A stretch of DNA of 35,913 nucleotides, taken from positions 1-35,913 of the IMG/VR virus record IMGVR_UViG_3300032896_000435. The stretch is one strand, 5' to 3'. Under the pieces are notes generated by a model, which worked only from the letters and a program-made list of their open reading frames with translations, was not told the origin of the DNA and did not search any database. Below, piece by piece: positions 669 to 35,913 of the stretch. Source of the DNA: a virus. A program made the translations under genes and the position numbers. How positions within the stretch are numbered: the stretch's first letter is position 1; each line of letters opens with the position of its first letter.

Positions 669-3600
669 TTAATTGATCGCGAACCCGGCAGGCAGGCCCG
701 GAATCGTGAAGCCGCCCACGATGCCGCCACCGGAACCAGATGCCGTCGTAGCAGCCGTGAAGCCCGTCGCGCCTGCGCTCAGCGGGTAGTTCGTCTGCTC
801 GTATTGAGCGAGAGCCACGGCGCTTGGCGGGTTGATCCACGCGATTGCCGGGCTGCCGATAGCGGCTCCGATTGCGTATCCCGTGTTGAGCGTGTAGCCG
901 CCCGTGTAAGTTCCCGTGTTCGACCCCACCGAGTCGGCGGCTGTCGTGCCGCTCGCCTCGTTGAGCTTCCAGTAATACAGCGGCGAGTCGCCCTCGACGA
1001 CCGTCGCGTAAGCGGTCGGTCCTGATTCCAACATCGTCGAGTAGTGGTTGCTGACCTGCGTTTGCGAGAGCGCCGTACTGTAATACGCGACGTGCGCCAT
1101 GATGGCGTTGGAGAAAGTGTCGCTGCTCCCATAGCCGCGTCCGATTCGCATGTAGCCGCTCGCCGCCGTGCAGGCGTTGTACGAGGCGTGGTACTGCACG
1201 CCGTCAACGTACATGTTCCCGATGACGCCAGTGGCGTTCCACGAGAACACCACGTGGTGCCAAACGTTGATAGAAGAAGCGGGAATGCTTGTCGTGCTGT
1301 AGCCCGTCAAGCAGCTTCCCGTCCATCCCGTGAATCCGTATTCCGAGTAGTAATCCCACACCGTCGGGCCGTACGTCGAACTGGTCGTTCCGGTTTTGTT
1401 CGCGTTCAACTGCATCATGGCTGCGGTGGAAGTCTCGGTGTATACCCAGCATTCGAGCGAGAAGCTGTGCGTCGAGCCGTAGGCGATGTCCGTGGTCGTC
1501 GTGACTTCCCCGGTGCTGCCATTGAGCAGGACGCCGTTCAGGGTTTGTAGGCTCGCCACGTCCGCCGCGTTGATGAACTGCAATGCCGAGGCGGTCGTGT
1601 TCCAGAACGGAAAGAAAGCGTAGCTCGTGTTTGCAGCAAGCCCCGTGATCGTCTGCGACCCGGTGCCGACGCTGATTGATGTCCCGTTAACGAGACTGAT
1701 CGTCTGCCCTGTCCAGCTTATCGTGATGCTGCTCGACGTGGACGAGTAGCTGAACGGGTTGCAGACGATGGGGCTGATGCTCCCTGTCGGCGGGATGCTG
1801 GAGAGCGACTGCGACCCGATGATCGTCCAATAGCTGGGCGACGTGTCCGGCTCCTCGTTCGTGTTCGCCGCGATGCACGAGTAGATGTTGCCGCCGTACA
1901 CGACTTGGTTGCTGATGACGTATGCCGTGGAACTCGACCACGCGCCGAGCAGGATCGCCGCCGTGCCGATGAGCGTCCAGTAGCTCGATGTGGTGCTCGG
2001 GGTTTGTCCCGTTCCCGCGCTGATGCAAATCCACGTGCTGCCGTTGTAGCTGACTTCGTTGCCGACTTGGTACGCGGTGCCGGAGTTGTACGCGCCGAGG
2101 AACTGGTAGCTGGTTCCGATCTGCTGCCACCAAGACGACATGGACGGGATGTTGTTCGTGTTCGCCGTCGTGCAGATGTAATAGTTCCCGTCATAGGTGA
2201 CTTGGTTTCCGACCGCATACGCCGTGCCGCTATTCCACGCGCCCGTGAAGACGCTGTTGCTCGGCGACGAGATGAGCGCCCAGTAGGTCGAGTTCGGCGG
2301 CTCCTCGTCGGTGTTCGCGAGGACGCACTGGTAGATGTAGCCGCTCACGTCCACGATATTTCCCTCGACGTATGGGAAGCTGCTCGACCACGCGCCCTCG
2401 TAGATCGCCGTGTTGTACTGCGGCGCGAGGATTCCCGTGGAGGCGTCGATGCTGCCGGGGTTCTCGCCGGGGATCGTGAATGTGATCGCCTCGATGCTGT
2501 CCAAGCCCAGCGGAGAATATCCGAATACGTTGGCCGCTTGGAACTTGAAGTAGAGAGTCTTCCCGCGCCACGTCGGCGGATAGGTGTAGTAGAAGATGCT
2601 GGAGTCCAAGAGCAGGAACAGGCTGCCCTCGGCGTGCGACGATTGCGTCGTGCCGTACTGTCCGCGACGGATGTACGTGCCCATCGTTACCTGTTGTTGG
2701 TTGGTGTAAGTCAGCGCGGAGTAGGAAATCAGTTCGCCGTCCACGAAGCACAGCGACGCGTCGTTGTCGGCGTTTGATGTGGTCGCGGCAACCATGGTTC
2801 CGCAGTTCGTCGCCAAGTCCACGACGAGGCTGTCGGTCGTGTCGGGATCGGACACAGGCGATGTCACGTGGAACGCGGACGCGAGCGTGCCGAGCTTCGC
2901 CGGGAACTTAATGGTGCCGACTGGTATGTAGTCCGTGCCGTCCTCCGACACGAAGACGTTCGTGCTCCCGTAGTTCGTGGACGTGCCCATCGCGCCGATG
3001 CCGATGGTGTCTCCCGTCACGTTTCCCTGCGCGAGAGCGAAGAGCGTCGGGCACTCGAACATCACGACCTCGGGGTTGCCGGGGTTGGCGAATGCGTTGG
3101 TGATCGGCGAACTGACGTTCAATTGTTTGTTGTAGATTGTCGGCTGATGGCTGCCGAAGATGTAGTCCTCGCAGGTTACCTTCAACCCTTGCGCGGGATC
3201 GTTCTCGATCTTTGTGATTCTCATCGGACGGTTCACGCATCCGAGGTTGATGTTGTTCGCGCCGTTCGCCCACAGGGACGACGTGGTGATGGTCACGATG
3301 TCCATGGGTTCGAGATGCGACCACGTGAAGTCGAGACCGAACTCCGCCGTGACGCGCTCGTAGCCGTTGTGCTTGATGCGCATGTTCCCGGCGAACGTCG
3401 CCGCCTGCGGAGTGTGGACGAAGCTGCAATCCTGCGGGTCTTCGCGTCGCTCGATCCCCCAAGCGTTTATCAGCCCTTGGTCGGACTCCTGAATGGTCTC
3501 GGTCGAGTACTGGTTTAGGCGGCTGTCGAAATTTATCTGCGTGACGTTCCAAGCATCCGCCGCAGAAGTGCGCCCGAACTTCACGGGGTCTTTTCCCTTG

Positions 3601-5078
3601 ACGGGCTTGAAGCACGTGTCGTCCAAAGCGGCTGCGTACACGCTCGGAGCAGTCCACGTGTAACCGTTCGAGTTGGCTGATGTGTCTCCGTAAGGAACCA
3701 GTTTCAGCAATCCTTCCGAGACGTAGGTGGCGCACATTCCCGCTTCGAGCCACTTGCCGCAGATGCTCGCGGCGGTATCCTGCCCGTCGATGACCGGGCT
3801 GATGAAAAAGTTTTGCGCCGCGAACCAGTTGAAGGCTGTTGCCCCGACCGCGTTCTGTCCCGGCACGGACGACGGGCCTCCCCATGTTCCGTCCGTCCCG
3901 TTGTCTATCGCGGCCGTGGGAAACGGAACGGCTCCCACGCCCAGCCCTGCTTGCGTGTCGGTCAGAACGCGCCCGATACAGATCACGGGGTTGCAGTCTT
4001 GGATTCCGCCGCCCATAGCGTCGGAGGTGATGATCTCGAAGCGGTTCTGCTGGACTTCGTTCGAGTAGCCCAAATCCATCGGCTGATACAAGACGCCGAA
4101 AATTCCGCTGTAGCTCCACGCCGCGTCGGGATAGGAATCCGTGAGGTAGGAGAATGGCGACTGCCCGATGGCTCCGGTGTTGTTTGTGTAGTTGAGCGAC
4201 GTAGGCTCGCCGGGGGCGACGGCGTTCGGTTCGTACTCACTCCATGTCATCGTGACAAGTGAGTTCGTGTCGCCCGAATAAAACTTGTACACCATCGGGT
4301 TCGTGCCCGTGGTCGAGTAGGTTCCCGACGCGCTTGGAGTCCCGATGACCTTCGTGAACGCGGTGCCCTCGTTGTCTCCGCTCGCCCACACGACGCCCTC
4401 GTCGGCGGAGACATACGCACCGCTGCCTTCGTCTCCGACGCTTACCGTGTACGGCGAGCCGGGAATAACAACGCGCTGCTGCTGGTTGACGGTCTGCACG
4501 CTGTAGCTGTAGCTGACCTGCACCGTGACGCCGTTGTTGAGGCTGCTGAATGTGTACTGCCCGGTCTCAGGGTTGACGGAATACTGCCCCGCGCCCGGCG
4601 AGGACGCCACCTGCTGGAAAATCGCGTTCGTGATCTGGTCGATGACCGTTGCATAAGGAGCGCCGAGGTCGTCGTAGGATTCGCTGACGCTGACTGCCGT
4701 GCTGACGCCGAGGTCGTTGTAGAAGTAGTCCGCGTTCTCCACGGTGTACGTGTAGGGTGATCCGATGGTGTAGGACTCCGCCGCCTTGGGCGATCCGAGC
4801 CAAGACTGTCCCGTCCACACATCGCCGATGCCGAGGACAGTTCCGCCGAGGCAGAGAGCCGCCTCAACGTCGGCGGCGTAGATATACTGACCGCCTTTGC
4901 CGCCACCCTTGCCGCCTTTGCTCGGAGCTTTCTTCGACGTGAACCCATCGACCCATAGGATTTGCGATTGCACCTGAGCGGTGCCCATCACCCAGATATA
5001 GGGCTTCCCATACGCGCTGTCGTTGACCCGCGCGTTGAAATAACGTTCCGGTGCTGGCTCCGATCCGAAAATTCCCAC
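669..5078 (-). CDS. Tail-tip / central fibre host-specificity protein (lambda gpJ-like) with sugar-binding modules
   Basis: A 1469-residue protein at the end of the tail module, directly after the NlpC/P60 gene, which is the usual position of lambda gpJ. The N-terminal part (about residues 1-650) has the look of the phage tail-hub family, with a short Lys/Gly-rich loop near residue 52-65. Residues about 890-1095 hold four roughly 50-residue modules with a GAW..TAY.VGN.V.Y.G..Y.C pattern, typical of CBM5/12-type carbohydrate-binding repeats. Residues about 1175-1340 form a LamG/concanavalin-like domain (pattern FSLECWVYT...WHHVVFSW). A Gly/Ser-rich tail ends the protein. The start is GTG, immediately after the TAA of the peptidase gene, with GGGGAG upstream. 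I infer that it recognises a host surface glycan; the N-terminal hub assignment rests mostly on position and size. Confidence 0.9.
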   Translation of the reverse strand: MGIFGSEPAPERYFNARVNDSAYGKPYIWVMGTAQVQSQILWVDGFTSKKAPSKGGKGGGKGGQYIYAADVEAALCLGGTVLGIGDVWTGQSWLGSPKAAESYTIGSPYTYTVENADYFYNDLGVSTAVSVSESYDDLGAPYATVIDQITNAIFQQVASSPGAGQYSVNPETGQYTFSSLNNGVTVQVSYSYSVQTVNQQQRVVIPGSPYTVSVGDEGSGAYVSADEGVVWASGDNEGTAFTKVIGTPSASGTYSTTGTNPMVYKFYSGDTNSLVTMTWSEYEPNAVAPGEPTSLNYTNNTGAIGQSPFSYLTDSYPDAAWSYSGIFGVLYQPMDLGYSNEVQQNRFEIITSDAMGGGIQDCNPVICIGRVLTDTQAGLGVGAVPFPTAAIDNGTDGTWGGPSSVPGQNAVGATAFNWFAAQNFFISPVIDGQDTAASICGKWLEAGMCATYVSEGLLKLVPYGDTSANSNGYTWTAPSVYAAALDDTCFKPVKGKDPVKFGRTSAADAWNVTQINFDSRLNQYSTETIQESDQGLINAWGIERREDPQDCSFVHTPQAATFAGNMRIKHNGYERVTAEFGLDFTWSHLEPMDIVTITTSSLWANGANNINLGCVNRPMRITKIENDPAQGLKVTCEDYIFGSHQPTIYNKQLNVSSPITNAFANPGNPEVVMFECPTLFALAQGNVTGDTIGIGAMGTSTNYGSTNVFVSEDGTDYIPVGTIKFPAKLGTLASAFHVTSPVSDPDTTDSLVVDLATNCGTMVAATTSNADNDASLCFVDGELISYSALTYTNQQQVTMGTYIRRGQYGTTQSSHAEGSLFLLLDSSIFYYTYPPTWRGKTLYFKFQAANVFGYSPLGLDSIEAITFTIPGENPGSIDASTGILAPQYNTAIYEGAWSSSFPYVEGNIVDVSGYIYQCVLANTDEEPPNSTYWALISSPSNSVFTGAWNSGTAYAVGNQVTYDGNYYICTTANTNNIPSMSSWWQQIGTSYQFLGAYNSGTAYQVGNEVSYNGSTWICISAGTGQTPSTTSSYWTLIGTAAILLGAWSSSTAYVISNQVVYGGNIYSCIAANTNEEPDTSPSYWTIIGSQSLSSIPPTGSISPIVCNPFSYSSTSSSITISWTGQTISLVNGTSISVGTGSQTITGLAANTSYAFFPFWNTTASALQFINAADVASLQTLNGVLLNGSTGEVTTTTDIAYGSTHSFSLECWVYTETSTAAMMQLNANKTGTTSSTYGPTVWDYYSEYGFTGWTGSCLTGYSTTSIPASSINVWHHVVFSWNATGVIGNMYVDGVQYHASYNACTAASGYMRIGRGYGSSDTFSNAIMAHVAYYSTALSQTQVSNHYSTMLESGPTAYATVVEGDSPLYYWKLNEASGTTAADSVGSNTGTYTGGYTLNTGYAIGAAIGSPAIAWINPPSAVALAQYEQTNYPLSAGATGFTAATTASGSGGGIVGGFTIPGLPAGFAIN
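1795..2400 (-). repeat. Four tandem carbohydrate-binding modules coded within the tail-tip gene
   Basis: Four in-frame copies, each about 147-153 bases (49-51 residues), follow one another. Their conserved Gly-Ala-Trp/Tyr starts lie near 2389, 2236, 2089 and 1939. Each has the order G-A-W/Y, T/P-A/Y-Y, VGN/ISN, V.Y.G, Y/W-x-C, then a Tyr/Trp near the end. Such arrays can change copy number by recombination and so alter receptor avidity. Confidence 0.8.
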
Positions 5079-7203: not shown

Positions 7204-9614
7204 CTCTTACCTGCCCTGCGCATCTCTTTCTTAGCCTGCTTGATGAACTCGCCCTTCTGCGCGAGGAACGCGTCCTTCACGCTGTCGCCGTCCCACGCCT
7301 GAATGTGGTTGGTCGGCGAGTAGTGCATGTGGTAGTGGTTGCCGCCCTCGGTCGCCGCAGCGAGCTTCTGCATCACGGGAACGGGGAACACGCCCTCGCC
7401 GGGCGTCAGGTATGCGGGAACGGAATCCCCGTATCCGGCTCCGGGGACGATACCGCCGCCCGCGAATGCGAGAGCGGCGGCGAAAACGATGGGAGCCACG
7501 ATCAAATCGAGCGGGAACGGAACGGTGGTCATAGCTTTCGCGGCAGCGGTTTTCGCCGCGCTCAGCCTGTTCACACTGTCCGCCGCTTGGCTCGATGCCG
7601 ACGCCGCAGCGTTGCCCGCCACGGTCGTCGCGGTCATACTGGCGGTGAACACCTTGTGGACGGTGAGCTTCGTTACTTCCGTGTGAATCCAGTTCTCCAG
7701 CATCTTCAGTCCTTGCTGAACCATGCTGCCGACGAACGCCTCGCCGAGCGATTCGAGCATCTTGTACGCGCTGCCGCCGTGCAAAACCCACTGCGTGAAG
7801 CTGTTGTTGAAGGCGTCCTCCGCCTGCTTCCCGGCGTTCTTCACGCTGTTCTGCCACGTCAGCGCGTCCGCATCCAACTGCTTCGACGTTTTCCCGCTCT
7901 GATCCTGCAACTCCTTGAGGTTGTCCTTCGCGGCTATAAGCAGCTTGTTGAGTTCCCTGTACTGATCGGTGCCCGCGAGCCTCGGGTCGCTCATCGCCTT
8001 TTGGATGGCGGCGATCTCGTTCTTGAGCGCCTGCTCGCTCGCGAGCAGCGCGGCGAGGTCTGCCTTCTGCTCCTGACGCTTCGCGGCTTCGGGATCGAAC
8101 GCGCCTATGGTGTTCGTGCTCGCAGCCGACTGGGCGTCCTTAAGCGTCTGCTGGCGCTGCTTGTCGGCTTCCTCGTAGGCGTCCGCCGCCTGCTGCGCCA
8201 CGTCCTTCGCGGTCTGGAGATAGCCCTTGATGAAATCCTCGTCCACTGCCTTCCGCGCGTCCATCGCGGACTTCTCGGCGTCGGCGGTGAGCTTGATGTA
8301 GTCGTTCGCGCCCTTTAGCTCGATCCCGAGAAGCGTCGCCTGATAGGTGAGGTCGGCGTCCTTCTTGGCGTCCAGCATCGCTTGGTAAGCGCCCGTCTTC
8401 CCCTTGTTGGCGTTGTAGTCGTCTTGGGCTTTCTTGATGGCAGCGTCGCGGTCGGCCGCAGCCTGCGCCGCGTCGGCGTCCGTCTCGAACGCGGGAGCGG
8501 GCGGAACGGCGGAAAGCTCGTTTTGCAGTTTGGTGATCTTCGCTATGAGGTCGGCTTGCTTGGCGAGTTCGTCGTTGTGCTTTTCAGCCGCGCCCGCCCC
8601 GGCGTCGGCTTCCTGTTGCCTGATGTTGCGAGCCTTTGCGTCAATGACAGCCTGCTTGCCCGCGATGAGTTCCTTCTCTTTGCTGAGTTCGGTGAGCGCC
8701 TGCCCGGTGTGCTGCGAATCTACGTACCGTCCTGCCGCGATCTCGGCGTTGTAGGCGTTGTTCGCTTTCCCGATCTCGAACGTGACGGCTGCCATTGCAG
8801 CCTTCAAGTCATTGTTCTTTTCGATCTTCTCGTTGATGATCTTGATGGCCTTCTCGGCGTCGTTAGCCGAGTAGGCGGTGACGGACGTGGAATTGACTTC
8901 GTCCTTCAAAGCCTTCATCTCCGCCGCCGCGCCCTTGAAATTCAACATCATCGCGTCGCCAGTCGCCATCCAGATGTGCCCGACGACATCGCCGTACATG
9001 CCAAGGACGAGAACGTAGTCCTGCGTCTTGGCTTTGATCCAATCCCACGTGCTCGACTGCTCGTCCAACTCTGCCGTGAGGGTCTTCGTGTATCCCGTCA
9101 TGTCGAGGGACTCGTTCCCCAAGTCCTTGAGCTTTTGGGCGTACTCGGCGACAGACCCCTGCGTCATCCCGATGTACGCCTCGTTGAGCGCCATCAACTC
9201 GTCGTGTTGCTTGTTGAACTCGGAATCTACCGCGTGTGTGGCTTCGAGGAGCTTGACGTTGCCGTCAGCCATGCCCATCAGCTTTTTCGCCCCTTCGGCT
9301 GCGATCAGGGCGACGGCGGCTATGCCAGCTATGACAGCCACGAACGGGATGGTGTCCATCACTGCGGCGTTCGACGCGAAGGCCCGCACCAAGTCGGCGA
9401 GAGCCATCGGCAGCCTGCCTCTGACGACGTTATCGACCAAGCCCAACTGCGTGCGCAAGCTGACCGCGCTGCCGCCAAACTTGTCGAGACCGCCCGAAGC
9501 GTTCTCCGCTCCGCCCTTGAGGTCGTTCAGGTCGGACTTCACCTTCCCCATGTCTTGGCGGAACTGCGCCGTCTCGGCTTGCAGCCTGATTATGAGTGCG
9601 CCTACTTCTGACAT
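7200..9614 (-). CDS. Tail tape measure protein
   Basis: An 804-residue protein that sets tail length and forms the channel for DNA ejection. It is long, Ala/Lys/Gln-rich and helical, with coiled-coil regions from about residue 150 to 620. Hydrophobic segments lie at about 88-108 and 698-724, which are typical membrane-inserting parts of tape measures. The C-terminus contains a His-rich HYHMHYSPTNHI stretch. From the usual length-to-residue relation I infer a tail of roughly lambda length or somewhat shorter. The start overlaps the end of the upstream chaperone frame by 13 bases, a standard arrangement after the G-T pair. Confidence 0.95.
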   Translation of the reverse strand: MSEVGALIIRLQAETAQFRQDMGKVKSDLNDLKGGAENASGGLDKFGGSAVSLRTQLGLVDNVVRGRLPMALADLVRAFASNAAVMDTIPFVAVIAGIAAVALIAAEGAKKLMGMADGNVKLLEATHAVDSEFNKQHDELMALNEAYIGMTQGSVAEYAQKLKDLGNESLDMTGYTKTLTAELDEQSSTWDWIKAKTQDYVLVLGMYGDVVGHIWMATGDAMMLNFKGAAAEMKALKDEVNSTSVTAYSANDAEKAIKIINEKIEKNNDLKAAMAAVTFEIGKANNAYNAEIAAGRYVDSQHTGQALTELSKEKELIAGKQAVIDAKARNIRQQEADAGAGAAEKHNDELAKQADLIAKITKLQNELSAVPPAPAFETDADAAQAAADRDAAIKKAQDDYNANKGKTGAYQAMLDAKKDADLTYQATLLGIELKGANDYIKLTADAEKSAMDARKAVDEDFIKGYLQTAKDVAQQAADAYEEADKQRQQTLKDAQSAASTNTIGAFDPEAAKRQEQKADLAALLASEQALKNEIAAIQKAMSDPRLAGTDQYRELNKLLIAAKDNLKELQDQSGKTSKQLDADALTWQNSVKNAGKQAEDAFNNSFTQWVLHGGSAYKMLESLGEAFVGSMVQQGLKMLENWIHTEVTKLTVHKVFTASMTATTVAGNAAASASSQAADSVNRLSAAKTAAAKAMTTVPFPLDLIVAPIVFAAALAFAGGGIVPGAGYGDSVPAYLTPGEGVFPVPVMQKLAAATEGGNHYHMHYSPTNHIQAWDGDSVKDAFLAQKGEFIKQAKKEMRRAGKR

Positions 9615-24355: not shown

Positions 24356-25120
24356 TCAGGTGTTTTTGCGGTTGCGGATGCGTTCGGCGCAGATGTCTGG
24401 CGGCGTGTCGAGCACTACGATCTCAGCGCCAGCGACGCGGAGCATATCTACGACCGCAGCCTTGGGGTTGCTGACGATGATCCATACGTGGTGCGTGCTG
24501 TATTGCGTGGCTTCGATGAACTGATCGCGCTTGGCGAGCACGCTGCCTATCGCGTCGGGCAGCGTTTCGTAGATCGGCAGACCCGTGACTTCCGACATCA
24601 CAACGTCGTAGTCGAACACATGGTCGTCCTGCGCAGCGTGCTGCTTCACGTACTCGCTTTTGCCCGCGCCGGGCAAGCCGCAAACAACAGTCGTGTTGCC
24701 GCGATTGCCGAGCGAATCGAACCGCGTTCCTTTGCGGTTTGTCCAACCGTATTCGCTTGCTGTCTTTGATGAGTGACACGGATGACACAAGCCTTGCAGA
24801 CGATCAGGATTGTAGAACTCGGCGACGCCGAAGTTATCGACAACCAGCCGCGCCGACAGGATGTGATCGACTTCCGTCGCTCGCTCGTGACCGCACGACC
24901 TGCACAGGATGTCGCGGCGAAGCACGATGCGGCGAGTCGCCTGCCACCTTGGCGTGCGGTACAGCTTGCGAATCGGATCGTTGTTGTCGCGGTATCGGTC
25001 GTATGCGCGGTTGTGCTCGATGCGGCGATTGGTCGTCTGGTGTTCGGCGCAGTATTTCGTGCCGTTGACCGCGCGGCGCAGGCACGGCGGAGGACAAAGG
25101 GGTGTTGGAGAACTTGGCAT
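24356..25120 (-). CDS. HNH endonuclease fused to a P-loop kinase-like domain
   Basis: A 254-residue two-domain protein. The N-terminus has a small Cys/His cluster (C9, C13, C24, H27). The HNH nuclease follows: zinc Cys pair C73/C76, D85-H86, N104, and C112/C115-H116 with K119. From residue 143 a P-loop NTPase begins with Walker A GLPGAGKS (148-155) and an FDYDVVMSE segment that could hold the Asp base of a kinase. HNH proteins beside the terminase genes help cos cleavage and packaging in HK97-like phages. The attached AAA_33-like domain resembles polynucleotide or nucleotide kinases, so the protein might cut and treat DNA ends; that is inference. No ribosome site is visible at the ATG, which lies inside a perfect dyad. 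Confidence 0.88.
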   Translation of the reverse strand: MPSSPTPLCPPPCLRRAVNGTKYCAEHQTTNRRIEHNRAYDRYRDNNDPIRKLYRTPRWQATRRIVLRRDILCRSCGHERATEVDHILSARLVVDNFGVAEFYNPDRLQGLCHPCHSSKTASEYGWTNRKGTRFDSLGNRGNTTVVCGLPGAGKSEYVKQHAAQDDHVFDYDVVMSEVTGLPIYETLPDAIGSVLAKRDQFIEATQYSTHHVWIIVSNPKAAVVDMLRVAGAEIVVLDTPPDICAERIRNRKNT

Positions 25121-25163: not shown

Positions 25164-26423
25164 TTACGCGAGCCTGCGGAAAGGTATTTCCTCTCGGATT
25201 AGCTGCTTGCACGTGATGAGTTCGATTTGCATATTCTGTTCTCGTTTTAGGCGGGCGACCTCCGCTTCGGCACCTTTGGTGAAGTCGAAGGCGATAATCA
25301 TTCCGCGCTTGTCTTTCTGGCGTTCAAGCACGCCCACGAAGTTGTCTATCACGGGTCTCCCCACTGATTCCGTTTGCTTCACTTGGATCGGATGATTCTC
25401 CATGAAAGTGAATCCGTCGATGCCCATATCAGAGACTTTTCGCGGACTATGGCGACCCTGTACGGCGTCAACCGCCCACATCTGAAATTCCTGCCAAGTC
25501 AATTGGTGGAGATGCTTTTCATGTTCCACCATTCCGTGGACTTCAATTGTCGGAGCGCCGATCTTGCGAAGCCTGTTCTGCACGACGCGTAGCGCCTGTT
25601 GCGAAATGTCTATGCCGATGCAACGCCGCCCAAGGTGCATAGCTGCTTCGAGCGTCGTTCCGCACCCGCAAAATGCGTCAAGCACCACGTCGCCTTTGTT
25701 GGAGGAGGCTTTGATAATGTTCTCAAGGAGCCGCAGCGGTTTCTGCGTCGGGTACCCTATTCGTTCCTTGGCCGACGGCATGATGGGTTGCATGACCCAC
25801 ACATCATCCGGGTGCTTCCCAAGAGGATTCGCCTCGTACTTGTCATAAACCTTGTCCCCGCGAAACGCTTTTGCTTTGTATTGAAGGCGCTCTAGGCTCT
25901 CCTTTGAATATTCCGTTCTGACGGCGTCCGCGTTGAAAGTCCACGTCTTGCCTTTGGTATAGAAAAAGATGTTGTCATGTCGTCTTCCAAAACGCTGCTT
26001 CGAGACTCCTCCGCCCCTGTAGTACCAAATCACTTCGTTTTGAAGATTTCCGTAGCCGAAAATCTTGTCCAATTCGACCTTCACATAATGACCGATGTGC
26101 CAGTCCAAATGAACGTAGATGCTCCCGGTCTGAGAGAGTTTCTGATGCAGTTTTCGCAGGCGTTCCACAAGATAGTTGAGGTAGGTCTCAATGCCACCCT
26201 TCCAGCGATCCTCAAACGCATACCGTTCCGCGTCATCTTCTCCCCAGAACGTCTCATAGTAGCGTTGGCTGTAGAAAGGCGGGTCGATATAGATCAAATC
26301 TACAGACTCGTCCTCGATGCAGTCCAGCATCGTGAGGCAGTCTCCTCGGTACAAATGGTTCCGGGCGTCGATATTGAAGCTGAGTTGTCGTGCCTTATTA
26401 GATGTGCTTGCGACCGATCCCAT
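25164..26423 (-). CDS. DNA adenine-type methyltransferase with C-terminal Mrr-like nuclease domain
   Basis: A 419-residue fusion. The N-terminal 300 residues are a beta-class N6-adenine or N4-cytosine methyltransferase: catalytic DPPF at residues 47-50 comes before the S-adenosylmethionine motif FCGCGTT at about 249-255. The last about 110 residues look like a PD-(D/E)XK nuclease of the Mrr type: WQEFQMWAVDAVQG, then MGIDGF with its Asp, and QVKQ with its Lys at about 347-350. So one protein may both methylate and cut DNA. The start is uncertain: GTG at 26537 would add 38 atypical residues; I prefer ATG at 26423. It follows the glycosyltransferase run and precedes the HNH gene. Confidence 0.88.
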   Translation of the reverse strand: MGSVASTSNKARQLSFNIDARNHLYRGDCLTMLDCIEDESVDLIYIDPPFYSQRYYETFWGEDDAERYAFEDRWKGGIETYLNYLVERLRKLHQKLSQTGSIYVHLDWHIGHYVKVELDKIFGYGNLQNEVIWYYRGGGVSKQRFGRRHDNIFFYTKGKTWTFNADAVRTEYSKESLERLQYKAKAFRGDKVYDKYEANPLGKHPDDVWVMQPIMPSAKERIGYPTQKPLRLLENIIKASSNKGDVVLDAFCGCGTTLEAAMHLGRRCIGIDISQQALRVVQNRLRKIGAPTIEVHGMVEHEKHLHQLTWQEFQMWAVDAVQGRHSPRKVSDMGIDGFTFMENHPIQVKQTESVGRPVIDNFVGVLERQKDKRGMIIAFDFTKGAEAEVARLKREQNMQIELITCKQLIREEIPFRRLA

Positions 26424-26538
26424 AGTGACGCACCCATCCCCCGGCCAAGATCGTAGAAAAAGCGAAGGCAGATGTATCTGGAACGAAAGGTCAGGTTCGG
26501 TACAGGTATTCCGACGAGGTATTGAGGCTTTCGACACT

Positions 26539-27216
26539 TCAGGATTCCCGACCGTGCCCTTGCGGAAATCGCCGCTTGTGCGCTTCGAGCATCATTTCCT
26601 TCACGTACCTGTGCCCGCTGTCCGACAGATGACAAGAAATCCGGTCGTTTGTCGGCAGCGGAACCGCTTCGCGGAAGTTGTACGTCCTTCCCATCGAGTA
26701 ACGCTTGTCGTCCGTGATCGGAACGGCGTTCGCCTGCATCACTTTCGCGACCCACTGGTCTTCGAGGTTCTCCGTGGACGGGATTTCCACGGCAAGGATC
26801 AGATCAGTCGCTCGCGGCGACAGCCAATAGCCCGGCCCGCCGTGCAGAAAGCTCAAGCCGGGATTCAGCTTGGAGTTCAACGGCCACGATCCCTTGTTGC
26901 CGACGAACTCGCCGCGCTCGAAGTTAGACGCCGCGAGGCGCAACGGATCAACGAACGTATCGGTGAAGCACTGGAAAATCCAGTCGTGGCTCAGGTTCCG
27001 CGCGGCAAGGTGCCCAAGCTGCGTCTTCCACGGCAACGATGCGTAGTCGTCCTTCGCGCTGACAAGAATCTCGTCGGGCAGCGGGTTCTCGTTTCCGTGA
27101 CCGAGGATGAAGAAGATCGGAAACGGGCTGAGCTTTCCCCAAGTGTCGCGGATGATCTGGTTGTGGCCGAGTTCGCGATCCTTCTTGCACGAACTGACGA
27201 CGATGCAGGGGTTCAT
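26539..27216 (-). CDS. Galactosyltransferase-like enzyme (GT31/fringe type), paralogue 2
   Basis: A 225-residue soluble enzyme with features of beta-1,3-galactosyltransferase/fringe families: SSCKKDRELGHNQIIRDTWG near the N-terminus, FTDTFVDPLRL in place of the DDDTYV metal motif (only the last Asp-Thr is kept), HGGPGYWLSPRA and NLEDQWVAK (the 'E-D' motif). It is clearly a paralogue of the product of 27386-28201. The ATG overlaps the stop of the small gene upstream (ATGA). It transfers a sugar to an unknown acceptor; loss of part of the DXD motif makes the metal use uncertain. Confidence 0.8.
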   Translation of the reverse strand: MNPCIVVSSCKKDRELGHNQIIRDTWGKLSPFPIFFILGHGNENPLPDEILVSAKDDYASLPWKTQLGHLAARNLSHDWIFQCFTDTFVDPLRLAASNFERGEFVGNKGSWPLNSKLNPGLSFLHGGPGYWLSPRATDLILAVEIPSTENLEDQWVAKVMQANAVPITDDKRYSMGRTYNFREAVPLPTNDRISCHLSDSGHRYVKEMMLEAHKRRFPQGHGRES

Positions 27217-27389
27217 TCGTCGTCAACCTGCCGATGCTTCAACTCGAAAACCCCGGCTTCCCACATCTCTCGAATTGTGGCAACTGTTTCGGGGGGGGGA
27301 ATCTCGAAGCTAAGCTCGCAACTCATCCCCAACTCGATGGTCATCGTGCCCGACTTGTCTATCAGGTAGTATTCATAGTGTCCGGTCAT
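27213..27389 (-). CDS. 58-residue protein with a nine-base C tract
   Basis: A small protein starting MTGHYEYYLIDKSG, mostly beta-strand with a helical end. It overlaps both neighbouring glycosyltransferase genes by ATGA junctions and has a GGAGG ribosome site, so it is a real member of the operon. A run of nine G on the plus strand (27291-27299) codes three Pro in a row. A change in the length of this run would alter its last 30 residues but would not fuse it to the next gene, because stops follow in both other frames. Function unknown. Confidence 0.75.
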   Translation of the reverse strand: MTGHYEYYLIDKSGTMTIELGMSCELSFEIPPPETVATIREMWEAGVFELKHRQVDDE

Positions 27390-28201
27390 ATCCCCTCCGT
27401 GAAATTCAAACTCTTCTTGATCGCCGGGATGCGCGACATGTACGCCTCGTCCTGCTCCGTCCACTGCCCGGTGAGTTCTTTTCTCTGCTCTTGGCGCAGC
27501 CAGTCGGAGTTCCAGTTGTGGATTCCGAGCACCCGCTGGAAGTACGAGTTGTAATTTGTCCAAAGGTGGTTCGTGATGTTTGAATTGTGAAGCGAAACTC
27601 CGCCGCGCATCGAGCAGTGGTCGTAGCGGCTGTCGTGGTATCCGACGACGCCGTACTTTCGCATCACGCCGCCTACCATGATGTCCTCGGACTTAGCGCC
27701 GCCAGTTCCCGCGTATACCAGCTTGCGCATGAAGTCGGCGCTCATCCAGTAGCCCGATCCGCCGCACGGATAGCCTTCCCACACGTTATGGAAGTAGACA
27801 TTCCCGACGACCTGCTGGGACTGCACAGCGCCGTGCTTGAACTCTTCCACGAGCCGGGGAATCGAAATGTACGTGTCCCTGAACGCCTGAAAGATGAAGT
27901 CGAAGCCGTTATCCAAGGCGAACTGGCAGTTCCAGATGGTTTTGTCCGGCAGGTGGTTCCAGTCGTCAGTGATAGTCGTAAAAACCTCGTGACGATCCGA
28001 TGACACTGGGTTGATAGCCGTGGTTGAGAGGCCGCCGACGTGGATGATGTAGGGGATCGGGTTGTAGTGACCATCGACAAAACTGTTGAGGGTGTAGTCC
28101 CACTTGTCGGCGACATTTCCCCAAGTCTCGGCGATGACCTTGTGATCGCCGTTGCGCATGTCGTCCTGACAGCTTGAAATAGCAATTAAGAATCGGCTCA
28201 T
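27386..28201 (-). CDS. Galactosyltransferase-like enzyme (GT31/fringe type), paralogue 1
   Basis: A 271-residue enzyme starting MSRFLIAISSCQDDM. It shares order and motifs with the product of 26539-27216: SSC..D...GDHKVIAETWG, FIFQAFRDTYIS.PRL (DTY of the DDDTYV motif), CGGSGYWMSADF, and KSEDIMVGGVM. There is no membrane anchor, so it works in the cytoplasm on a nucleotide-sugar donor. The ATG at 28201 overlaps the stop of the 65-residue gene; no strong ribosome site is present, so translation probably depends on coupling. The acceptor may be phage protein, phage DNA or host surface glycan; the sequence does not decide. Confidence 0.82.
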   Translation of the reverse strand: MSRFLIAISSCQDDMRNGDHKVIAETWGNVADKWDYTLNSFVDGHYNPIPYIIHVGGLSTTAINPVSSDRHEVFTTITDDWNHLPDKTIWNCQFALDNGFDFIFQAFRDTYISIPRLVEEFKHGAVQSQQVVGNVYFHNVWEGYPCGGSGYWMSADFMRKLVYAGTGGAKSEDIMVGGVMRKYGVVGYHDSRYDHCSMRGGVSLHNSNITNHLWTNYNSYFQRVLGIHNWNSDWLRQEQRKELTGQWTEQDEAYMSRIPAIKKSLNFTEGI

Positions 28202-28395
28202 GCTGCACCGAGATAGTGGCGTATCCATGCCCAGCGCAGCCAAAACCACCCGTGAACGCGCTCAAGCAACGTCGGCGGAGTGGTTTCGCATTCCAACCGC
28301 TCGCCCATCCTCAGTGCCCGGAAGCAAGCTGCCTCGAAACTGAGATAGACTTTGCGTCCCGCCAAGTCTCGCGTGAAATATCTGTACATACCCAT
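28198..28395 (-). CDS. Small basic, Trp-rich protein between epimerase and glycosyltransferase
   Basis: A 65-residue protein starting MGMYRYFTRDLAGRKV. The C-terminal WFWLRWAWIRHYLG is strongly aromatic and may bind a membrane surface. AAGGAGG lies at a good distance before the ATG at 28395, which overlaps the epimerase stop. GTG at 28398 is the alternative start. Function unknown; it may anchor the glycosyltransferases, which is speculation. Confidence 0.7.
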   Translation of the reverse strand: MGMYRYFTRDLAGRKVYLSFEAACFRALRMGERLECETTPPTLLERVHGWFWLRWAWIRHYLGAA

Positions 28396-29285
28396 CACGC
28401 CGCCTCCTTTTGCTTCGCGGCTGCGACGGCAGGGAAAGCCTCGAAGATGTGGTCTACCAATCTCCGTGTCGCCTTGAAGCCGAGATGATCGAACGCGGGC
28501 TGGATGTCGCTGACGAGAATCTTGGCATCGCCGGGACGGGGATCGGTGTACTTCACGTCCACGCCGAGCAGCTTGGCGACATCATTCATCGAGGTCTGCA
28601 CGCCCGTGGCGATGTCGAACGTGCATCCGCTGACCTTTGACTCGGCAGCGAGCAGGAACGCTTCCGCTACATCGTCGGCGTGGACGAAGTCGCGAGACTG
28701 GGTGCCGTCTCCGGTGATCGTGAAGTGTCCGTCGCGCTCATAGCTGATGTCGAGGCCCGCGAACGCGCAGGGCTGGTATTCCGTCCGCGACTGACCGCTG
28801 CCGTAGATGTTGCTCGGGCGCAGGCCCATGACGCTCAGACCCTTCTCGGCGAACACCTCGACCGCGACTTCGCACAGGTGCTTCGTTCGCCTGTAGATCG
28901 TGTCCACGTCCGAAAGGCAAATATTGCTGCTGCAAACGGCGACGCGGGGAACCTTGGCGGCGAGGGCGACGGTGAGGACGTTGACCGTGCCGAACACGTT
29001 CACCGCGACGGCTCGCTTGGCGAAGTCGCGGCAGTTGAGGTTCCTGCCGTAGGCGGCGAGATGCAGGATCGCGTCGGGCTTGACATCCTCGACGACCCGA
29101 GCGAGCGCGGCGAAGTCCGTGATGTCCACGTAGTAATGGAGACCGCCGATATAGATGCCGACACTGGCTCCGCACGTAGGCTCGCAGTTGTCGATCACGA
29201 AAACTTCGTGCCCGGCCGCTTTCGCCGCAGCGGCGGCGTGCCGACCGAGAAAACCGAGACCGCCTGTGATGAGATATTTGCTCAC
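28395..29285 (-). CDS. NAD-dependent epimerase/dehydratase (extended SDR)
   Basis: A 296-residue nucleotide-sugar enzyme. The NAD-binding loop GGLGFLG has its glycines at 8, 11 and 14, VID follows at the end of strand 2, and the catalytic set is Ser119/120, Tyr131 and Lys135 (YRRTK). SRDFVHADDVAEA and the C-terminal GDAKILVSDIQPA..LGF are also typical of GalE/UDP-sugar 4-epimerases and related dehydratases. The start is GTG at 29285, overlapping the previous stop (GTGA). It probably makes the donor sugar for the glycosyltransferases downstream. The exact sugar cannot be told. Confidence 0.92.
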   Translation of the reverse strand: MSKYLITGGLGFLGRHAAAAAKAAGHEVFVIDNCEPTCGASVGIYIGGLHYYVDITDFAALARVVEDVKPDAILHLAAYGRNLNCRDFAKRAVAVNVFGTVNVLTVALAAKVPRVAVCSSNICLSDVDTIYRRTKHLCEVAVEVFAEKGLSVMGLRPSNIYGSGQSRTEYQPCAFAGLDISYERDGHFTITGDGTQSRDFVHADDVAEAFLLAAESKVSGCTFDIATGVQTSMNDVAKLLGVDVKYTDPRPGDAKILVSDIQPAFDHLGFKATRRLVDHIFEAFPAVAAAKQKEAA

Positions 29286-29608
29286 GACTTCACCCCGAAA
29301 CGCTCGTTGAGCTTGTCGGCGATCTTGCAGGCTGCCGCGAAGTCCGACAGGAATGCTCCGGCTCCTTCCGGCTTGTTCCCGGTGACCGAAGACACGATCT
29401 CCAGCACTTCTTCCCACGTGATCGGCGGGATAGCAGGAAATAAATCAAAATCCGTATGCCAAGGCGGCAACACTTTTTCCTCGGTTACGACCGCATACTC
29501 CCTGCCCGCGTGCTCGGCGCTGACCTTGATGATGCCCTCAGCGTTGGGGTACGCCCTCACACTCGTCCCATCAGGATTTTTGATTTCGATGTAACTCACC
29601 TTACTCAT
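29282..29608 (-). CDS. Protein of unknown function upstream of the epimerase
   Basis: A 108-residue protein starting MSKVSYIEIKNPDG. The N-terminal 45 residues look beta-rich; the C-terminal part, from TWEEVLEIVSS to KIADKLNERFG, is helical. It has a good ribosome site (AAGGAG), which lies inside the previous small gene, and overlaps both neighbours by four bases. No known motif. Confidence 0.8.
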   Translation of the reverse strand: MSKVSYIEIKNPDGTSVRAYPNAEGIIKVSAEHAGREYAVVTEEKVLPPWHTDFDLFPAIPPITWEEVLEIVSSVTGNKPEGAGAFLSDFAAACKIADKLNERFGVKS

Positions 29609-29727
29609 TGCTGTTTCTCCTTTTTCGATTTCGGACGACCGCGCTTCTTAGAGCCGGGCTTCGGCGGCTTTCCGCCATTGCAGGCTGGGCAAGTCAAGAC
29701 GACATGCGGATGCTTGGGGCAGTTCAT
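29605..29727 (-). CDS. 40-residue zinc-knuckle / AT-hook-like protein
   Basis: A tiny protein starting MNCPKHPHVVLTCPAC: two Cys/His pairs (C-x-x-H and C-x-x-C) could hold one zinc. It ends in a basic stretch with an AT-hook-type core (KKRGRPKSKK). It overlaps the genes on both sides (ATGA at each end), which strongly supports it. It may bind DNA and regulate the operon; that is inference from the motif. Confidence 0.65.
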   Translation of the reverse strand: MNCPKHPHVVLTCPACNGGKPPKPGSKKRGRPKSKKEKQQ

Positions 29728-29882
29728 ACGCCCCAATCCCGCTTGAGCTTCGCATGGCAACGCTCACAGAACTCGTAGTCGTTGACGCCAGCGCCCTGCT
29801 CCGCGTAGAAGTGGCAGCGGTCGCACAGGTTTTCCCTGAGCCATCGTTCCCACGCCTGCTGTCTCTTTTGTTTCGTGTCCAC
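29724..29882 (-). CDS. 52-residue zinc-ribbon-type protein
   Basis: A small protein with the pattern LCDRCHFYAEQGAG....FCERCHAKL, i.e. two C-x-x-C-H knuckles spaced like a zinc ribbon, after a helix (KQKRQQAWERWLRE). The only likely start is GTG at 29882, which lacks a good ribosome site. Its stop overlaps the next ATG. It is the first gene of the overlapping run that ends in the second glycosyltransferase. Confidence 0.65.
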   Translation of the reverse strand: MDTKQKRQQAWERWLRENLCDRCHFYAEQGAGVNDYEFCERCHAKLKRDWGV

Positions 29883-34343: not shown

Positions 34344-34574
34344 ATGGAACGACCGAAATGCGAGATACCGGACTGCGAGCGCCCGGCGACAGAGATGGTG
34401 GGCTTGCTTCACGACTTCAGGTACAGGTTGACTTGCCGGAACCACAAGAGCCACTGGTACGACAAGGGAGGCTTCGGCTGCTGGTTCGCGAAGCTCGAAG
34501 GCTATATAGAGGACAAGTCGATTGAAGAACACTTCCGCGACAACCAAGCCCGAGCGGCGACACGCGGCGAATGA
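34344..34574 (+). CDS. Small Cys/His-rich protein
   Basis: A 76-residue protein starting MERPKCEIPDCERP. C-x-x-x-x-C near the start and C-x-x-H (LTCRNHKSH) form a likely zinc site; the C-terminal half is helical. The start has an AGAGGAGG sequence 5-7 bases upstream, the best ribosome site of the window, so ATG 34344 is chosen over the longer frame from 34242. It is preceded by the long hairpin. Function unknown. Confidence 0.75.
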   Translation: MERPKCEIPDCERPATEMVGLLHDFRYRLTCRNHKSHWYDKGGFGCWFAKLEGYIEDKSIEEHFRDNQARAATRGE

Positions 34575-34706
34575 GCAGGTTCGCATAAGGCGGGGAAACC
34601 CAACCGGACAATTTGCGAGGGGCGGCTGTATACTACAGGCGCAAGACCAGCGTCAGGCGACAAAATTCGGACAAGGGGAACGGATGAAAAAGATGACCGC
34701 CAAGGA

Positions 34707-34712
34707 TATAAT
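34707..34712 (+). promoter_or_regulatory. -10 box of the tRNA gene
   Basis: TATAAT is a perfect -10 box, 8 bases before the first base of the tRNA. No good -35 box is found at 16-18 bases. A second possible -10 (TATACT) lies at about 34630. Confidence 0.45.
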
Positions 34713-34720
34713 GTCCGAGA

Positions 34721-34798
34721 GACCCCGTAGCTCAGTCGGATCAGAGCGCCGTCCTTCTAAGTCGGAGGTCGTGGGTTCGAGTCCCACCGGGGTCGCCA
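34721..34798 (+). tRNA. tRNA-Arg (anticodon UCU), CCA encoded
   Basis: Full cloverleaf: acceptor GACCCCG/CGGGGTC with discriminator G and CCA, D-stem GCTC/GAGC, anticodon loop CTTCTAA giving UCU for AGA codons, and T-stem GTGGG/CCCAC with TTCGAGT loop. The anticodon stem CCGTC/GTCGG has one T-T mismatch in its fourth pair. AGA is rare in GC-rich genomes; this tRNA is both a common phage cargo and a common integration site. It lies 59 bases before the integrase start. Confidence 0.96.
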
Positions 34799-34822
34799 CA
34801 CCGCCTCATTACCGACGGCCTA

Positions 34823-34851
34823 TTGGTTTGGTTGACAGTCTTCCGTATTCT
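34823..34851 (+). promoter_or_regulatory. Possible integrase promoter
   Basis: TTGGTT (34823-34828) and TATTCT (34846-34851) are 17 bases apart, and the ATG lies 7 bases after the -10 box. The spacing to the ATG is the same as for the 30716 gene. No ribosome site precedes the ATG, so the message would be leaderless. Confidence 0.4.
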
Positions 34852-34857
34852 CCCTCC

Positions 34858-35913
34858 ATGGCGGCTCCCAAGCGAAAGCGAGGAAAAATGCTTGAGGAGT
34901 CAGTGTCTTTCAAGGAGCAGTCGGAGAAGTGGATCAAGTGGGCTACGACGCGCAGCAGGAAGCCGATTTTGCTAACGTCGATTCCCACAATTCGGTGCGC
35001 TCTCGACAAATACATCCTGCCGGAGATCGGCGAACTGCCGCTGTCGAAAATCCACAACGGCACGTGCAGACCGATTGTCGAGAGGATGAAGGAAGCAGGG
35101 CTGTCGTCGAGTTCGATGAACGGCTACATGAACATCGTCAAGGCTGTGATGAAAAGCGTCATCGACCCGGAGACAGGCGAGCCGAAGTATAACCGCAAAT
35201 GGAACTCGACGTTCCTCGATTTGCCCGTCGTCGAGTACACGAAGCAGCCATGCCTGACGGCGGATCAGGTGGAGTCCATGTTGGAGGATGCGAAGTACGA
35301 GTGGGAACGCGTGCTCTATATTCTGCTCGCGTCGAGCGGTCTCAGAATTTCCGAGGCGCTCGGCTTGGAGTGGAAGCACGTGGTCAACAACGGTCGCACG
35401 CTGGTCGTCGAGCAGAAGGTGAACCGCTTCGGCAAGATCGAGCGCAAGCTCAAGACGAAAAGCGGCAAGCGCGAAGTCGATCTTCACCCGGTCGTTGCGA
35501 AGGAGCTTCTCGCGTTCCGGCACGAGCAGAACGGTCTGCTGTTCTCGACGCGCGAAGGCACTCCGCATCTCGGCAACAACCTTGAGCGCCGCAGGCTGCG
35601 GGAGCACGCCAAGGGTTCGTGGCACCAGTTCCGCAGATTCAGGAATACGCACCTGCGGAAGAACGGCTGCCTCGAAGACCTTCGACTTTTTTGGCTCGGC
35701 CACAAGCCGACCGAAATGGGCGAAGTCTACTCGAAGCTCAAGGACGACCTGCCGACCCGGCTGGAATGGGCGGAGAAGGTAGGACTTGGGTTCAAGCTGG
35801 TTCAGCGGGACCCGCGCACGATCAGGCGGATCGGCAAGCCGCGCGGTCGGACGTGGAAGCCGGGACAGGTAGTAGAAGCAAAGGCGAAGCGGATCGCCCT
35901 TCGGGAAGACTGA
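34858..35913 (+). CDS. int: Tyrosine-type site-specific integrase
   Basis: A 351-residue phage integrase. The N-terminal SAM-like core-binding domain (about 15-110) is followed by the catalytic domain: Arg163 in SGLRISEAL, Lys in the TKSGKRE beta-hairpin (about 202-206), His256-x-x-Arg259 (HQFR), His282 in WLGHKP and nucleophile Tyr291 in EVYSKL. All six catalytic positions are present. A basic tail of 55 residues with KPRGRTWKPG follows. It integrates and, with a helper, excises the phage. The frame is open upstream through the whole tRNA; I choose ATG 34858 after the tRNA, but ATG 34684 with AAGGGG upstream would give an in-frame longer product. The stop is the last codon of the window. Confidence 0.95.
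   Translation: MAAPKRKRGKMLEESVSFKEQSEKWIKWATTRSRKPILLTSIPTIRCALDKYILPEIGELPLSKIHNGTCRPIVERMKEAGLSSSSMNGYMNIVKAVMKSVIDPETGEPKYNRKWNSTFLDLPVVEYTKQPCLTADQVESMLEDAKYEWERVLYILLASSGLRISEALGLEWKHVVNNGRTLVVEQKVNRFGKIERKLKTKSGKREVDLHPVVAKELLAFRHEQNGLLFSTREGTPHLGNNLERRRLREHAKGSWHQFRRFRNTHLRKNGCLEDLRLFWLGHKPTEMGEVYSKLKDDLPTRLEWAEKVGLGFKLVQRDPRTIRRIGKPRGRTWKPGQVVEAKAKRIALRED

Follow-up and report, generated by a model that had tools for sequence, protein, structure and literature searches.

In a virus contig (IMG/VR record IMGVR_UViG_3300032896_000435; the window below is the whole stretch analysed, 35,913 nucleotides), a block of overlapping genes has as its core a nucleotide-sugar epimerase and two glycosyltransferases of GT31-like type. 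On balance, we think that this core is a cassette that glycosylates a virion protein and is expressed together with the head genes. The epimerase and one or two GT31 domains occur together in six phages, the window included, and GT genes cluster with virion or packaging genes in the window and in five relatives (L001, L006, L007, L008, and L009; relatives are cited by L numbers). All relatives are uncultured contigs, several of them probably incomplete.

Organization of the gene block

The eight minus-strand ORFs between 29882 and 26539 (Table 1) are joined by seven junctions, all of which are exact 4-bp stop/start overlaps (ATGA or GTGA); the gene order, coordinates, and short overlaps described in an earlier note on this DNA are correct. 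No 4-bp overlap occurs at the downstream junctions, which involve the methyltransferase, HNH-kinase, TerS, capsid, TerL, portal, and protease genes and the next ORF. The eight-ORF run therefore stands apart as a translational unit of its own. A scan for promoters and terminators gave signals at chance level. The names GT1 and GT2 are used here for the two ORFs so labeled in Table 1; "GT2-family transferase" denotes a separate enzyme class found in relatives.

Table 1. Positions of the features discussed, and gene order at the corresponding loci of relatives.
Feature	Position	Strand	Remarks
Two-CxxC ORF, possible zinc ribbon	29724..29882	-	52 aa; first of the overlapped run; cassette membership unsupported
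ORF with CPxH/CPxC and RGRP AT-hook-like tail	29605..29727	-	40 aa; weak coding signal
ORF with no relative found	29282..29608	-	108 aa; coding score +0.34
Nucleotide-sugar 4-epimerase-like SDR	28395..29285	-	296 aa; GTG start
Trp-rich ORF, epimerase-GT1 interval	28198..28398	-	65/66 aa; poor coding signal (-0.12)
GT31-like glycosyltransferase 1 (GT1)	27386..28201	-	271 aa; DxD is F-R-D; SED catalytic-type motif retained
ORF in GT1-GT2 interval	27213..27389	-	58 aa; coding score +0.27
GT31-like glycosyltransferase 2 (GT2)	26539..27216	-	225 aa; DxD is F-T-D; LED motif retained
DNA N6/N4 methyltransferase + Mrr-type nuclease fusion	25164..26423 (ORF extends to 26537)	-	Pfam N6_N4_Mtase 7e-51, Mrr_cat 9e-8
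HNH nuclease + P-loop kinase-like domain (AAA_33)	24356..25120	-	begins head/packaging module, just before small terminase
C4 zinc ribbon, L009	9420-9506 (approximate)		
C4 zinc ribbon, L008	5350-5430 (approximate)		
C4 zinc ribbon, L037	8830-8920 (approximate)		
Gene order, L001			capsid, GT2-family transferase, epimerase, GT1, GT2, second GT2-family transferase, head genes
Gene order, L007			GT2-family transferase, epimerase, GT2-ortholog
Gene order, L008			epimerase, GT31 double domain, TerL
Gene order, L009			epimerase, Methyltransf_24, DNA methyltransferase, GT31 double domain, TerL
Gene order, L037			epimerase, small ORF, Methyltransf_24-like ORF (by eye), GT31 double domain

The epimerase and the GT31-like enzymes

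The identities proposed earlier for the epimerase and the two GT31-like enzymes hold in Pfam/PHROG, profile, and fold searches. The epimerase matches Pfam Epimerase (2.3e-36; 125.8 bits against a cut-off of 20.9), PHROG 540 (nucleotide-sugar epimerase; 1.2e-39), and the UDP-glucose 4-epimerase structure 4zrm in the PDB (1.9e-19; 5.6e-28 with a profile). Among solved chains, UDP-glucose 4-epimerases and MoeE5 come closest to it, matches that do not fix the sugar. The Rossmann/NAD motif (GxxGxxG) is intact as GGLGFLGR, and so is the YxxxK dyad (Y131-R-R-T-K135), the Tyr and Lys of which are invariant among orthologs. Five other phages have orthologs of 48-67% identity.

GT1 and GT2 are paralogs, 26-30% identical to each other, and share with GT31 (Galactosyl_T/Fringe; B3GalT5/6, B3GNT2, C1GalT1, Manic fringe) a GT-A fold of GT31 (beta-1,3-hexosyltransferase) type and the motifs IRxTWG, [F/D]xDT[YF], GGxGYWLS, and ED. 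The GGxGYxLS loop reads GGSGYWMS in GT1 and GGPGYWLS in GT2, and the ED motif reads SED and LED, respectively. Against Pfam Galactosyl_T the two proteins score 18.0 and 13.1 bits, both under the 23-bit cut-off; the same model is matched by 10 of 17 family members at E<=0.01 (best 7e-8). A four-sequence profile found B3GalT5 (7e-5) and C1GalT1 (3e-4), with the right motifs covered. AlphaFold models built from a 17-sequence alignment have a pLDDT of 93.0 and a pTM of 0.91 for GT2, and 84.8 and 0.85 for GT1. When the PDB was searched by fold with each model, the top 37 matches were all GT31 enzymes (E 6e-11 for GT2), those of GT2 being led by B3GalT6, B3GNT2, chondroitin synthase, C1GalT1, and Manic fringe.

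Both enzymes depart from the known GT31 proteins in several respects. They are only about 13-18% identical to the solved members, fall below the Pfam gathering score, and are small (225-271 aa) and soluble, with no strongly hydrophobic or membrane-spanning segment in either. Their DxD motif reads F-R-D-T in GT1 and F-T-D-T in GT2, so that only the third Asp of the DDD motif is retained and the first is replaced by Phe, which is why we term them GT31-like and not GT31 members. Other phage members keep the DxD (CDVDT, CDADT). The Phe is common to the orthologs and is thus a lineage trait, not the decay of one copy; catalysis is nevertheless not assured, since both GTs have lost the first Asp. 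In tblastn searches of 50,697 phage records, neither GT1 and GT2 nor the GT of L009 found a match, and the open-access literature searched contained no description of phage GT31 enzymes.

Conservation of the core in other phages

GT1 has one ortholog, in L001 (65% identity), and GT2 has three, in L001, L006, and L007 (57-65%), with more distant relatives in L008-L012. The five other phages in which the epimerase accompanies GT31 domains are L001, L007, L008, L009, and L037, and their epimerase-GT and GT-GT pairs overlap by 4 to 22 bp in L001, L007, and L008. Further sugar genes are usual alongside: L001 and L007 have GT2-family transferases, L009 has a Methyltransf_24 enzyme, and L037 has a similar one, recognized by eye. 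An epimerase-led scan of IMG/VR gave, among the matches listed, three close orthologs, each of them near a GT31 gene, and other loci of at most 31% identity, none of which had a GT31-like neighbor. The same SDR family is encoded by cyanophages (PHROG 540; P-SSM2, S-SKS1), in some cases beside an annotated glycosyltransferase, but these epimerases are only 27-30% identical to that of the window.

The cassette lies upstream of HNH-TerS-MCP in the window and in L006, just after MCP in L001 and L007, and upstream of TerL in L008 and L009. The relative with the closest synteny is L006 (TerL 59%, capsid about 52% identity). L013 and L015 have capsids 55-57% and TerL 62% identical to those of the window but no GT31 in their records; head genes are thus shared without the cassette, which identifies it as an accessory insert.

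Not all GT31 copies are intact. In L037 (6823-8923) an HNH endonuclease gene (8174-8587) splits the second GT31 domain, and at the place corresponding to this split the second GT domain of L008 is interrupted by an in-frame TGA. Rfam gave no intron match at the interrupted domain of L037 or L008.

Extent of the cassette

The run had been interpreted as a sugar-transfer cassette, and as a single system that also includes the methyltransferase-nuclease. The first proposal stands for the overlapped core of epimerase and GT31-like enzymes kept in other phages, and does not extend to the tiny ORFs or the methyltransferase-nuclease. The search for the same gene order likewise recovered the epimerase-GT31 core and not the tiny ORFs: tblastn gave no match for any of the five in the fetched relative loci. 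In L001 the epimerase and GT1 overlap directly, without the Trp-rich ORF, and GT1 and GT2 overlap by 4 bp, without the 58-aa ORF.

The tiny ORFs themselves have modest coding signals. Where the 95th percentile of off-frame sequence is +0.28 bits per codon, the possible zinc ribbon scores +0.21, which is moderate, as are the scores of the 58-aa and 108-aa ORFs; signal is weak for the AT-hook ORF (+0.02) and for the Trp-rich ORF. The CxxC and RGRP motifs behind the labels zinc ribbon and AT-hook do exist, and the labels have no other basis. All Pfam matches of the 52-aa ORF are sub-threshold, the best being cytochrome c7 (E=0.002), with a double zinc ribbon at E=0.054. The 40-aa ORF had no match in Pfam, and the 108-aa ORF had none in Pfam, PHROG, or IMG/VR. 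Small zinc or AT-hook ORFs sought at the same place in GT-less relatives gave no convincing counterpart. Three relatives have a C4 zinc ribbon at the C-terminal end of the coding region of the GT31 double domain (Table 1).

The methyltransferase-nuclease had been said to follow the block at once. Its ORF does open at 26537, one base past the GT2 stop. The 38 codons ahead of Met26423, however, score as non-coding: they average -0.56 bits per codon, where the remainder of the ORF has +0.21. The gene thus probably begins at 26423, separated from the GT2 stop by 115 nt. The GC3 of the gene is 0.63, and that of the epimerase and GTs 0.78-0.81. In L006 the methyltransferase is absent and GT2 directly abuts the HNH gene. 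The methyltransferase-nuclease is therefore probably a neighbor outside the cassette. Full-length (95%) homologs of about 30% identity are the methyltransferases of the Streptomyces phages Hippo and Werner (gp48), in whose records tblastn detected no GT31 relative; a DNA-level search of phage records found only a short methyltransferase match, in Streptomyces phages. PADLOC returned methyltransferase models only and no defence system. The next gene, the HNH-kinase fusion, is also present as a fusion in L013, and its L006 homolog consists of the HNH part only.

It is highly improbable that the eight ORFs and the methyltransferase-nuclease all form one dedicated system that requires the tiny zinc proteins as subunits. 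The seven consecutive 4-bp overlaps would fit such a system, and zinc ribbons do occur with GT31s in L008, L037, and L009. Against it are the lack of tiny ORFs in relatives, the direct overlap of epimerase, GT1, and GT2 in L001, and the probable gap and lower GC3 of the methyltransferase. The earlier claim of a single system fails on the same points, since relatives have no counterpart of the tiny ORFs and the L006 site lacks the methyltransferase. Both are probably passengers of a variable site.

Candidate acceptors of the sugar

Three targets had been proposed for the sugar: phage DNA, a virion protein, and a host receptor. A virion protein is the best fit to the position of the genes and DNA the worst. 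Glycosylation of phage DNA against restriction, alongside the methyltransferase, is quite improbable. Phage glycosyltransferases that hypermodify DNA are known, including those linked to TET (Pyle 2024, as cited in PMC12619734), and both the window and L009 have an adjacent DNA methyltransferase. Sugar transfer to DNA would require a hydroxylated base, as supplied by Tet/JBP or a dNMP hydroxymethylase. Unlike the TET-linked system, however, the window has a methyltransferase of the N6/N4 amino type (DPPF), which leaves no hydroxyl for glycosylation. No thymidylate-synthase-type hydroxymethylase was found in the window and four relatives, where the control matched; no Tet/JBP oxygenase was found there either, a weak result since the Tet control matched nowhere. 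The methyltransferase is also absent beside GT2 in L006, and none is next to the cassette in L001 or L007.

Alteration of the host surface (LPS, teichoic acid, or capsule), leading to lysogenic conversion or to a superinfection block in which related phages cannot bind, is unlikely. It would suit a phage that encodes an integrase beside tRNA-Arg, and the GT31 relatives of L010 and L012 lie in large nucleotide-sugar clusters resembling polysaccharide synthesis. Yet neither a GtrA flippase nor a GtrB bactoprenol transferase is among the Pfam/PHROG matches of the block, GT1 and GT2 offer no membrane-spanning candidate, and the block lies about 5 kb from the integrase and against the packaging genes, with related phages showing the same class of position. 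As the integrase marks the phage as temperate, a role of the cassette in the lysogen is possible.

Three features of these loci deserve separate mention. The tRNA-Arg (anticodon TCT; 34721-34798, plus strand) falls within the integrase ORF (34522-35913), in its upstream part, which suggests that the integrase really starts after the tRNA and that the tRNA marks the attachment site. The virus contig L010 (5562-12202) has a possible viral polysaccharide locus, in which at least four GT31-like genes are interspersed with a GT11 fucosyltransferase, two genes of epimerase/dehydratase type, and one resembling an aminotransferase. The 1469-aa tail protein of the window (669-5078, minus strand) has three family 5/12 (chitin-type) carbohydrate-binding modules and a weak fourth copy, at 1827-2393; such modules were found in none of four cassette-bearing relatives tested.

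Decoration of the particle is indicated by the conserved linkage, the extra transferases and methyltransferases, the lack of strongly hydrophobic GT segments, and the home of the cassette among head and packaging genes. Proximity to head genes could instead reflect a tolerant insertion site. Alignment of the capsids revealed no consistent feature of GT-bearing phages that is absent from the GT-less L013 and L015. An extra insertion of about 8 residues in the window capsid was considered as a glycan-acceptor signature and ruled out, as the GT-bearing L006 lacks it.

A model for particle glycosylation

For virion-protein glycosylation we infer the following pathway from the gene content. The epimerase, acting as a UDP-hexose (or UDP-HexNAc) 4-epimerase, would convert a host nucleotide sugar into the donor, and GT1 and GT2 would then add sugars in sequence, probably by beta-1,3-type hexosyl transfers. 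The acceptor would be a virion protein, most likely of the capsid or tail. Translated as a coupled unit immediately before the HNH-TerS-capsid genes, the operon would allow the glycan to be installed during particle assembly. The particle may benefit by being masked, or by altered stability or adsorption.

Experimental proof of phage virion glycosylation comes mainly from mycobacteriophages. Their capsid and tail tube proteins are modified by cassettes in which tandem glycosyltransferases stand behind an O-methyltransferase (Freeman 2023, as cited in PMC11600133 and PMC12619734). These cassettes resemble that of the window in having tandem transferases placed with virion genes, and their O-methyltransferase has a parallel in the Methyltransf_24 enzyme of the L009 version (Freeman 2023, as cited in PMC11600133). 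The window cassette differs in having its own epimerase, and its glycan is predicted. Given the lack of a tblastn match in the phage records, the resemblance is one of function rather than of ancestry, at that sensitivity.

Implications for the GT31 family

The GT31 family is familiar from eukaryotes, where its enzymes belong to the O-glycan and proteoglycan pathways of the Golgi. We put forward, tentatively, that prokaryotic viruses may carry an undescribed GT31-type branch together with a dedicated epimerase, as a portable virion-glycosylating cassette with an atypical metal site (F-x-D for D-x-D). If this is true, such a compact, non-homologous GT31-like cassette would suggest an independent origin of virion glycosylation, based on a fold linked to the surface glycans of eukaryotes; as small soluble proteins, the enzymes should be easy to express. 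The finding also bears on whether GT31 is really eukaryotic, as relatives are present in several uncultured viruses and in L012, an archaeon by its record's own label.
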